From Alphaproteobacteria bacterium (lineage in GTDB: Bacteria > Pseudomonadota > Alphaproteobacteria > Micropepsales > Micropepsaceae), in the NCBI GenBank assembly GCA_025350465.1, contig JANXXU010000005.1:1-64000 (forward strand): DNA of 64,000 nucleotides. Reading direction: 5' to 3'. Below are positions 19,613 through 22,214 of this stretch, one piece after another (position 1 is the first letter of the stretch; each line of letters begins with the position of its first letter). The position numbers and the translations under genes were made by a program. The notes beneath the pieces were generated by a model. It saw only the letters and a program-made list of their open reading frames with translations, made no database searches and was not told the DNA's origin.

Positions 19613-20602
19613 TTAGCTCGCGCGGTGGCCCTGCCGGTGCGCTTCCCAGCGCAGCGCCGTTTCCACGATCGTGCGCAGGCTGGCGATCTCGGGGCGCCAG
19701 CCCAGCTCCGCCTGCAGTTTGCGCGCGTCGCACACCAGCGCCGGCGGGTCGCCGGCGCGGCGCGGGCGCATCTGGGTCGCGAGCGCGTGCCCCAGCACCT
19801 CGCCGAACGTCGCCACCACCTCCTTGACGGTGTGCCCGGTGCCGTAGCCGCAATTGAAAACGCGCGTCTCGCTCGGGCGCCCCGGCTTCATCAGCGCCGC
19901 GAGGTGCGCATCGGCGAGGTCCATGACGTGGATGTAGTCGCGCACGCACGTGCCGTCGCGCGTCGGGTAGTCGTCGCCGTAGATCTCGAGCGCCGGGCGC
20001 CGGCCGATCGCGACCTCGGCCGCCACCTTGATCAGGTGCGTCGCCTCCTTCGTGCGCTGGCCGGCGCGCCCGTTCGGGTCGGCGCCCGCGACATTGAAAT
20101 AGCGCAAGATCGTGGCGCGCAGTCCGTGCGCCGCGGCCAGATCCTTCAGGATGAACTCGCTCGCGAGCTTCGATCCGCCATAAGGGTTCACCGGCGTCAG
20201 CGGCGCGCTCTCGTCGATCGGGTTGTGCTCCGGCGCGCCGTAGACGGCGGCGGTGGAGGAAAACACCACGTCGCGCACGCCGGCGCGCCCGAGCGTTTCG
20301 AACACCGCCAGCGCCTTCACCGTGTTGTTCGCATAATACTTCGACGGGTTGGCGACCGACTCCTCGACGCGGATGTGAGCGGCGAGGTGGATCGCTGCGT
20401 CGATCGCGTGCTCTTCGATCGTCTTGGCGAGGAGCGCGCTGTTGCCGCTGTCGCCCTCGACGAAGGCAACGCCCGCGGGCACCGCCTCGCGAAAGCCCGT
20501 GGACAAGTCGTCATAGACGACCGCTTCGTGGCCGCGGTCGAGCAAGCGGTGGCTCAGCGCGCTGCCGATGTAACCCGCGCCGCCGATGAGAAGGACCCGC
20601 AA
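19613..20602 (-). CDS. galE: UDP-glucose 4-epimerase
   Basis: This extended short-chain dehydrogenase interconverts UDP-glucose and UDP-galactose. The NAD-binding GGAGYIGSALSHRL is at residues 7-20, SSTAAVYG at 115-122, and the catalytic pair Y141-x3-K145 is in NPYGGSKLASE. Further family marks are HLAAHIRVEES and RDYIHVMDLADAH. The length of 329 aa is normal. It precedes the glycosyltransferase operon on the same strand and probably supplies UDP-galactose for the polysaccharide. Confidence 0.94.
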   Translation of the reverse strand: MRVLLIGGAGYIGSALSHRLLDRGHEAVVYDDLSTGFREAVPAGVAFVEGDSGNSALLAKTIEEHAIDAAIHLAAHIRVEESVANPSKYYANNTVKALAVFETLGRAGVRDVVFSSTAAVYGAPEHNPIDESAPLTPVNPYGGSKLASEFILKDLAAAHGLRATILRYFNVAGADPNGRAGQRTKEATHLIKVAAEVAIGRRPALEIYGDDYPTRDGTCVRDYIHVMDLADAHLAALMKPGRPSETRVFNCGYGTGHTVKEVVATFGEVLGHALATQMRPRRAGDPPALVCDARKLQAELGWRPEIASLRTIVETALRWEAHRQGHRAS

Positions 20603-20655: not shown

Positions 20656-21045
20656 TCAATCGTGATGGTGCGGAAAGGCGGCTTTGCAGGTGTCTGAGAG
20701 TTCCGCCTCATGCTCGCGCAAGCAGTGGCGCGGACCCTCGTCGGACTGCCCGCCGCCGGCGCAGAACTTGGCGATGTCGGCGCCGCATGCCGCGTTGACC
20801 TTGTCCATCATGGCCTTGCGCCTGGACTCCATGTCGCTGTGGCAGGCCGGCGAGAGCGCGTCGCGATGCTCGCGCATGCAGCTGCGGCCGGCGTCCGTGT
20901 GGGCGTCGACCCCCGGGCACAATTTCGTCATATCGGCGGCGCACGCCGCCGAAGGCCAAACCGGCTCGGCGGCGAGCGCGACGCCTGCAAAAGCAAAGCC
21001 GGCCGCGACGGCGACAACCGCAAGATTGATGGACTTGATGGACAT
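20656..21045 (-). CDS. Secreted protein with two cysteine-rich repeats
   Basis: The 129 aa protein has a signal peptide (MSIKSINLAVVAVAAGFAFAGVALA). Two tandem modules share the pattern C-x2-D-x3-x-C-x(n)-C-x3-H-x3-L-S-x2-C. The first is CAADMTKLCPGV to DALSPAC and the second CGADIAKFCAGG to AELSDTC. This matches the cysteine-rich repeat (PF00839-type) found in small bacterial periplasmic proteins and in the Golgi protein GLG1. The tail HHHD may bind metal. I start at the ATG 21045; a GTG at 21054 is in frame. Function unknown. Confidence 0.8.
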   Translation of the reverse strand: MSIKSINLAVVAVAAGFAFAGVALAAEPVWPSAACAADMTKLCPGVDAHTDAGRSCMREHRDALSPACHSDMESRRKAMMDKVNAACGADIAKFCAGGGQSDEGPRHCLREHEAELSDTCKAAFPHHHD

Positions 21046-21274
21046 CAACGACACCGCCCGTTTCGAAGCTCATTAAACGCCCGCCGTCGGCGAACCTGTC
21101 GGGCAGGAAACTGACTGGCAAATCGGACAGGAACCAGCCCCAGCCGAACCACCGTTCATCCGCCATTCAGTCAGGAGATGATCACGTCGCGCCATCGGGG
21201 AAAAGGACTAGTGGCTCAACTGCGCATCGCCCTCGGCGAGCGCTCCAATGCTTTTGCAAAGGATCGACTGCAAA

Positions 21275-22180
21275 ATGAAACTCACTTCAACGGCGACGGT
21301 GCTAGCTGTGGCATTGGGCGTCGCAGCACTAAGCAGCCCCGCCTTCGCCGAACGAGGCGACCGCTGGCGCGACCACGATGGCAAGGGCGAGGGTCAAAAC
21401 CAGGGCCAACACCAAAATCAAGGTCAGCATCGCGACAACAACAATAACGGCGGTCATCCGAACTGGAATCAGAACAACCAGGGCGGCGGCGGCAATTGGC
21501 GTCATCGTGAGGATATCCCGCACGGGCCTTTGGGTTTCAGCCCGCGCGGTCCGGTGGGCCCGCAGGGTGGGCCCGGCAATGGGGGTGATCGCCGCTTCGG
21601 CCGTGGCGACGGCGACCATTCACACAACGACCAACACAACCAAAACAACAACAATTGGGCGGAGCGTTGGCGCGGCCGTGACAACGGTGGCGACCGGGAT
21701 CATCGCTTGGGCGAGGATCGTTGGCGCAACCACGACAACAACAACGGCGGCGACCGGGATCGTCGTTTTGGCGAGGATCGTTGGCGCAGCCACGATCGTG
21801 ACCATGACGGAGATCGGTGGCGCGACCGTGACCGCGGCCACGATTGGGATCACGATCGCTGGCGCGATCATCATCCCCGCTGGTGGCGCCCGGACTTCTT
21901 CCACTACGGAAATTATTGGTATCCGCAGTGGTACAATAACGGCTGGAACGACAGCTGGCGCTACGGAATAGGCCTGCGGTTCTTCGACGACCTCTATTGG
22001 TGGAACTACGAAAACGAATGGTGGTTCTGGGACGCGAACGGCGAGTGCTGGCACCAAGGCGATCCGCGTTGGGGCGGTGGCTACGGCGGGCGCGACAGCT
22101 CCTGGCCGCGTGAGTGGAACGATCATCACTGGCGCTTCTGCTACGACGCCGGCGACGACGGCTACGACGGCAATTATTGA
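21275..22180 (+). CDS. Secreted low-complexity protein, Asp/Arg/Trp/Asn-rich
   Basis: After a signal peptide (MKLTSTATVLAVALGVAALSSPAFA) the mature protein is highly biased. There is a Gln/Gly/Asn/His-rich part, then repeated units of the type GEDRWRxHDxNNGGDRD. The last 90 residues are extremely rich in Trp and Tyr (for example FFHYGNYWYPQWYNNGWNDSW). The total is 301 aa. The ATG at 21275 follows an AGGA sequence and starts the signal peptide. No enzymatic domain is recognised. The DRDRWR pattern is reminiscent of RcnB-type metal-homeostasis proteins, but the RcnB core is not evident. A surface or matrix role is only a guess from the polysaccharide context. Confidence 0.78.
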   Translation: MKLTSTATVLAVALGVAALSSPAFAERGDRWRDHDGKGEGQNQGQHQNQGQHRDNNNNGGHPNWNQNNQGGGGNWRHREDIPHGPLGFSPRGPVGPQGGPGNGGDRRFGRGDGDHSHNDQHNQNNNNWAERWRGRDNGGDRDHRLGEDRWRNHDNNNGGDRDRRFGEDRWRSHDRDHDGDRWRDRDRGHDWDHDRWRDHHPRWWRPDFFHYGNYWYPQWYNNGWNDSWRYGIGLRFFDDLYWWNYENEWWFWDANGECWHQGDPRWGGGYGGRDSSWPREWNDHHWRFCYDAGDDGYDGNY

Positions 22181-22188
22181 GCGGCCGG

Positions 22189-22214
22189 CCGGGCAGGGAA
22201 ACCTGCCCGGTCGT
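22189..22214. terminator. Hairpin terminator between convergent genes
   Basis: CCGGGCAGG (22189-22197), a GAAA loop and CCTGCCCGG (22202-22210) form a perfect 9-base-pair stem with a stable tetraloop, followed by TCGTTT on the plus strand. It sits between the stop of the low-complexity protein gene and the stop of the convergent epimerase gene, where a terminator for one or both is expected. Confidence 0.8.

Follow-up and report, generated by a model that had tools for sequence, protein, structure and literature searches.

A tryptophan-rich, probably exported protein restricted so far to one genus of Micropepsaceae, with a conserved two-cysteine domain and an upstream TTCA-N7-TTCA repeat

Introduction

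RcnB has a role in nickel and cobalt homeostasis, and its family (PF11776), represented by E. coli RcnB/YohN and solved as 2l1s, resembles in plan the protein described here in having a signal-peptide-like start, a charged low-complexity linker and a small C-terminal domain. The likeness extends to the DNA, since a TTCA-N7-TTCA direct repeat lies upstream of the present gene and of 7 of 20 RcnB loci in other alphaproteobacterial genera, and it ends at the C-terminal domain, which in the present protein has two invariant cysteines and far more tryptophan. The glycine-zipper 2TM proteins (PF05433) are likewise small and of secreted type and, in the four genomes searched, have the same GTTCAT-N5-ATTCAG upstream, but they carry a membrane-zipper segment where the present protein has an aromatic two-cysteine domain, and no sequence relation between the two was seen. 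Aromatic pairs followed by D-x-x-G, read by eye, are a likeness to the choline/glucan-binding repeats (PF01473). To our knowledge, few functions have been assigned in this class of alphaproteobacterial envelope proteins. On the regulatory side, a direct repeat with an 11-bp period is a usual form of the sites of OmpR-type response regulators. The accessible part of the work on CenR of Rhodobacter sphaeroides (PMC9275681) states that the direct-repeat form is typical of this regulator type, gives the CenR site as TGA-N8-TGA, with 28 of 31 sites running with transcription as TGA, and lists targets most of which are envelope proteins.

The DNA analysed, here called the window, is the whole stretch of 64,000 nucleotides at positions 1 to 64,000 of contig JANXXU010000005.1 (assembly GCA_025350465.1) from an alphaproteobacterium of the family Micropepsaceae, and all coordinates are given in it unless another locus is named. 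Compositionally extreme secreted proteins usually go unannotated. In the present case what is conserved in the protein can be told apart from what varies, and a promoter element common to several such proteins puts them in one group with RcnB, giving a testable handle in the form of one regulator and one motif. A literature search, mostly outside subscription journals, returned no account of the Trp-rich family or of a TTCA-N7-TTCA regulon in the portions of the sources that were accessible.

The open reading frame and the layout of the protein

The open reading frame runs from 21275 to 22180 on the forward strand, exactly where a sequence-only reading of the window had placed it, and encodes 301 amino acids plus a stop codon. 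Homologues are present in 8 of the 11 genomes of the genus, the window's own included. Another in-frame ATG is found at 21248, and since the residues that it would add are not kept in the nearest relative and an AAAGGA-containing stretch 5′ of the ATG at 21275 is common to the window and this relative, the latter is the likely start. The protein opens with MKLTSTATVLAVALGVAALSSPAFA, which by eye has the anatomy of a signal peptide and ends in SPAFA; with the cut placed by eye after AFA (residue 25), the signal-peptide-like N-terminus occupies 21275..21349 (+). The start is similar in six relatives in which it lies on the same contig as the gene, the seventh (L006) being left out of the comparison as its contig begins inside the gene start. 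The protein is probably exported, and the word "secreted" in the sequence-only reading stands by this signal-peptide anatomy and the similar starts of the relatives.

The N-terminus is followed at 21350..21871 (+) by a low-complexity linker that is very rich in Asn, Gln, Gly, Arg, Asp and His and contains a degenerate patch, GPVGPQGGPG. GEDRWR repeats had been noted in it, and Tandem Repeats Finder recovered the GEDRWR unit as a 60-bp tandem repeat at 21681..21795 (+; 1.9 copies, 90% matches). Repeats of NPPGPRGGPG replace the window-type linker in six relatives, the linkers of the window protein and of genome G001 are Asn/Gln/Arg-rich, and linker composition is unconserved across the family. 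In a comparison with collagen-like sequences made by eye, no long uninterrupted Gly-X-Y run was seen in these linkers, each relative's patch holding about three triplets (PPG PRG GPG) and the window linker the degenerate patch. The conserved aromatic C-terminal domain, supported by alignment A2 and by dN/dS, comprises 91 residues encoded at 21872..22144 (+), and the codons of its invariant cysteines are 22046-22048 (Cys258) and 22139-22141 (Cys289), also on the forward strand. An acidic Gly/Asp/Tyr tail at 22145..22177 (+) completes the protein and is found, among the eight, in the window protein and that of G001 only.

A conserved aromatic domain

The 91 C-terminal residues hold 16 Trp, 9 Tyr and 6 Phe, that is 31 aromatic residues (34%), and the high aromatic density reported earlier for this end of the protein proved to be the highest among 274 frames of the window. 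This comparison covered stop-to-stop open frames of at least 100 codons on both strands, overlapping frames counted, and the best 90-residue stretch of any other frame contained 19 aromatic residues. None of 20,000 random sequences matched to the frame in positional base composition reached 16 tryptophans, the maximum being 14; positional base composition fails to explain the aromatic density of the frame.

In the alignment of the eight domain sequences (A2), 40 of 100 columns are invariant, both cysteines among them. No histidine of the aromatic domain is invariant in A2, and alignment A5 has one invariant histidine just upstream of the domain. The dN/dS ratio lies between 0.085 and 0.52 and is below 1 in all 26 computable pairs (28 pairs in total, two of them saturated). 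Judged from these alignments, the aromatic domain is conserved, is under purifying selection and is not low-complexity filler, and it is presumably the functional part of the protein. The description "low-complexity", which the sequence-only reading had given to the protein as a whole, thus suits the variable linker and has to be withdrawn for the last 90 residues, which belong to the conserved two-cysteine domain.

The same data bear on whether the frame is a gene at all. The DNA is repetitive and several open frames overlap here on both strands, which is what would be expected if the frame were spurious and owed its existence to repetitive DNA or to an antisense gene. Conservation of the gene in eight genomes, with dN/dS in the above range in 26 of 28 pairs, together with the similar signal-like start, the upstream element and the hairpin in relatives, makes such an origin very improbable.

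Distribution and relation to known families

The gene was searched for at increasing phylogenetic distance. No match was found in 85 other genomes of the family at E 0.01, and at E up to 1 there were short weak matches in seven family genomes outside the genus, the best having E 0.09. A class-wide search of 385 genomes at E 0.001 matched only the window's own genome. In the phylum search of 398 genomes, five besides the window's own matched weakly over 28-33 residues (E 0.001-0.009), four of the matches having a stop codon inside, and these we take as compositional. The class and phylum searches scored the best 13 or fewer first-look candidates per genome, so that remote relatives could be missed. 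When contigs were searched with the single protein as the query no homologues were obtained; with the domain alignment as the query seven loci were found, all on contigs already among the genus matches. The plasmid search gave no match to the Trp-rich protein, and viral contigs no confirmed relative. As far as these searches reach, the family appears to be restricted so far to one genus.

That no family could be recognised, as was reported from the sequence alone, remains true after searches of Pfam, NCBIfam, PDB sequences and PHROGs (the last with the domain only), none of which gave a usable family match. The NCBIfam CigR entry matched weakly (E 0.076; 13.3 bits against a cut-off of 78) over the signal peptide and the start of the linker. 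The other weak entries were BRANT_His_rich (in one member, best E 0.73), PFF1_TM (in one member, E 1.1) and a bd-oxidase chain (E 3). The PF01473 repeat profile did not match at the gene in any of the 8 genomes.

Genomic neighbourhood

The position between nucleotide-sugar genes that had been pointed out earlier was borne out. On one side is galE, encoding UDP-glucose 4-epimerase (19613..20602, -; TIGR01179 above cut-off), and on the other, convergent with the Trp-rich gene, a gene for an NAD-dependent nucleotide-sugar epimerase/dehydratase (PF01370; 22216..23277, -). A small secreted-type Cys-rich gene (20656-21054, -; PF00839 match below cut-off) also lies between galE and the Trp-rich gene. 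No NCBIfam equivalog was above cut-off for the epimerase, and "uronate-type" is therefore our own reading of it. The region further contains a nucleotide-sugar dehydrogenase, a Wzz/AAA protein, several GT4-type glycosyltransferases, EpsG, a Wzy_C protein, GMD and GMP_PMI, and going by these gene assignments it is of exopolysaccharide type.

The epimerase adjoins the Trp-rich gene in 7 of 8 genomes, and galE is on the other flank in all 7 in which this flank is visible, with the Cys-rich gene intervening in the window. At L016, in genome G007, an unrelated large open frame follows the Trp-rich gene and the epimerase is at the end of another contig. The gap between GalE and the Trp-rich gene is 65-434 bp in the five relatives measured against 672 in the window, so that the Cys-rich gene may have been added in this genome. 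It is divergent from the Trp-rich gene, and a direct repeat is situated between the two.

Between the Trp-rich gene and the convergent epimerase is a terminator-like hairpin of 12 pairs (22186..22213, +). The hairpin scan of the window gave a count of 1, which is not above that of shuffled sequence (mean 1.3), and a GC-rich hairpin was found 3′ of the stop codon in 6 of 6 relatives folded. With a hairpin after the gene and both sugar-gene neighbours on the opposite strand, the Trp-rich gene is read as a separate transcription unit. The window scan found no sigma-70-type promoter.

The constancy of the two flanks would be in keeping with an exopolysaccharide-specific matrix protein, or one anchoring a capsule, that serves the polymer of the neighbouring cluster. 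The gene and the epimerase stay paired at three loci (L013, L014 and L018) where other frames part the epimerase from the dehydrogenase, and the three genus genomes without the gene are also without the epimerase at E 1e-90. These three genomes are 64, 88 and 86% complete, so the joint absence could be due to missing contigs, and one of them, G008, retains the dehydrogenase. The strand arrangement and the hairpin speak against a dedicated matrix or anchoring protein, as do the separate contig of the G007 epimerase and the epimerase relatives in five genomes of other genera (L042-L044, L046 and L047), near which no Trp-rich secreted frame was found within about 1.5 kb. Such a cluster-specific role is considered unlikely.

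A direct repeat upstream of the gene

The direct repeat CGTTCATCCGCCATTCAG, of the form TTCA-N7-TTCA with an 11-bp period, is located at 21153..21170 (+), ends 104 bases before the start codon and is a putative site for an OmpR-type response regulator. It appeared as a conserved block in the aligned upstream regions of five relatives, and the window copy was recognised by eye. The pattern CGTTCATSCRCCATTCAG has a single occurrence in the window and no other even with 3 mismatches; its 0 mismatches at 21153-21170 arise by construction, as the bases of the window copy went into the making of the pattern. The pattern GTTCATNNNCCATTCAG is found upstream of the Trp-rich gene in 7 of 8 genomes, G010 being counted through a contig that holds only an N-terminal match (E 5.8e-4). 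Genome G001 keeps the gene (L012) and lacks the element upstream of it even with 3 mismatches.

Compared with what the accessible text on CenR describes, the element is likewise a direct repeat with an 11-bp period, and its reverse complement TGAA-N7-TGAA contains the CenR core. It differs in that TTCA runs with transcription here and in its flanking bases. Set against the co-directional TGA-N8-TGA by which the CenR regulon is recognised, the period agrees and the strand is opposite. Because of the opposite direction and the different flanking bases, CenR is regarded only as a candidate regulator. The ChvI patterns in the part of PMC9731502 that was available, TTGC-N3-GCAA and N-GCC-N8-GCC, do not fit TTCA-N7-TTCA, and the word "motif" does not occur in the available part of PMC10746171.

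The element in four genomes

A search of four genomes for GTTCA-N7-TTCAG gave 30 sites. The window's own genome has 15 of them against 1 for a reversed control pattern, and the other three genomes show little excess over this control (5 v 3, 4 v 3 and 6 v 2). The strict form GTTCAT-N5-ATTCAG was found at 7 sites, 3 before the Trp-rich gene and 4 before a glycine-zipper protein, all 7 with a signal-peptide-like ORF within 140 bases. In 4 of 4 genomes the element ends 60-85 bases before the glycine-zipper start; PF05433 is above cut-off for L111, and the other three glycine-zipper proteins are alike by eye. Where the second half of the repeat opens with A or G, 12 of 19 sites have a secreted-type ORF on the same strand, one of which (L096) looks like a membrane protein, compared with 0 of 11 remaining sites. 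Of the 12 non-strict sites with GTTCAG as the second half, 5 are followed by a same-strand ORF of this type no more than 140 bases away. A same-strand secreted-type ORF accompanied 514 of 16,291 random positions (3.2%). It is lacking at 18 of the 30 sites, and 4 of the 30 have one on the opposite strand. Since the crude signal-peptide rule and the second-half split were both set after a first look at the sites, and the strict sites are orthologues of two genes, these figures are suggestive and do not amount to a clean test.

Three small secreted-type proteins are encoded on other contigs of the window's own genome, at L084 1556-1987, L092 1063-1455 and L108 1635-1940. They are His/Asp-rich or Arg/Asp/Trp-rich, have GTTCA-N7-TTCAG upstream and gave no Pfam match at E 0.1; L092 fails the strict signal-peptide rule.

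The upstream element tentatively places the Trp-rich protein among small secreted envelope proteins. As the promoter element is common to other small exported proteins, the Trp-rich protein is probably part of an undescribed cell-envelope gene programme.

The element at RcnB loci and the relation to RcnB

The element was also looked for at 29 RcnB loci, of which 9 belong to this genus and 20 to others, with start codons picked by a rough rule; L060 was dropped from the set as its start is off the contig and L057 was excluded as not RcnB. TTCA-N7-TTCA occurs in the 120-base stretch before the start at 8 of the 29 loci, namely 7 of the 20 from other alphaproteobacterial genera and 1 of the 9 from this genus, where it has the opposite orientation. 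Eight of the nine listed RcnB-locus sites fall in these 120 bases and the ninth is the same place seen through the overlapping L063, as L063 and L075 overlap and have one site in common. TTCA came first of the 256 tetramers in that arrangement, tied with its complement TGAA, and when spacings of 3-13 were compared 7 alone stood out at RcnB loci.

The RcnB loci bring in metal homeostasis, where the Trp-rich protein would be periplasmic and RcnB-like, buffering divalent metals through its His/Asp-rich linker, with the aromatic domain as a structural cap. The RcnB proteins of the genus are likewise built of a signal peptide, a charged linker and a small C-terminal domain, the element is found at the above 7 of 20 loci, and His/Asp-rich proteins are the products of element-bearing genes in the window's own genome. 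A shallow profile built from 10 RcnB sequences of the genus moreover scored 20.2 against the domain, a value reached by none of 250 column shuffles. This signal vanished with a deep profile of 30 sequences, which scored 11.2 against the domain, reached by 47 of 250 shuffles, and 12.5, thus higher, against the reversed domain. At E up to 10, RcnB was absent from the Pfam results for the protein and PF11776 did not match the gene in any of the 8 genomes, whereas 5 of these genomes, the window's own not among them, have RcnB genes above the curated cut-off at other places. The absence of an invariant histidine in A2, with one just upstream in A5, and the unconserved linker composition also count against a metal buffer, and we find such a function doubtful.

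RcnB membership is not supported, PF11776 being unmatched and the shallow-profile signal being lost with the 30-sequence profile, and because of this loss RcnB homology is not claimed. The sequence-only reading had itself named RcnB as the family against which it should be checked, and the comparison turned up no clear match. The Trp-rich protein is read, with moderate confidence, as an envelope protein that is RcnB-like in architecture and not placed in RcnB by sequence.

A proposed role in the cell envelope

We tentatively favour, at rather less than even confidence, a genus-restricted exported cell-envelope protein that is controlled by the upstream element and docks with its aromatic domain on a surface glycan. 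The element would be the site of an OmpR-type response regulator answering an envelope signal, and the protein made in response would be exported. Its linker would span the periplasm or a surface layer, where its Arg, His and Asp residues may touch metal or an anionic polymer. The aromatic domain, fixed by a disulfide, would dock by aromatic stacking on the strain's own exopolysaccharide or LPS. The docked protein would then stabilise the envelope or matrix. Glycan docking is the weakest step of this mechanism; two AlphaFold predictions had mean pLDDT of 48.8 and 42.4, too poor for use, and docking is accordingly argued from composition and location.

A more far-reaching version is possible, if rather improbable. 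In this version the two-cysteine aromatic domain would be a new small polysaccharide- or LPS-binding fold and one output of an undescribed alphaproteobacterial envelope regulon, defined by TTCA-N7-TTCA, that switches on a set of small secreted proteins of extreme composition, namely RcnB, glycine-zipper, His/Asp-rich and Trp-rich proteins.

A minor observation concerns the RcnB-domain proteins of the genus. In four of them (L051-L054) the RcnB domain is followed by a glycine-zipper-like stretch and a C-terminal region that contains Cys, and by eye these proteins look like a fusion of two protein kinds that share the element elsewhere.
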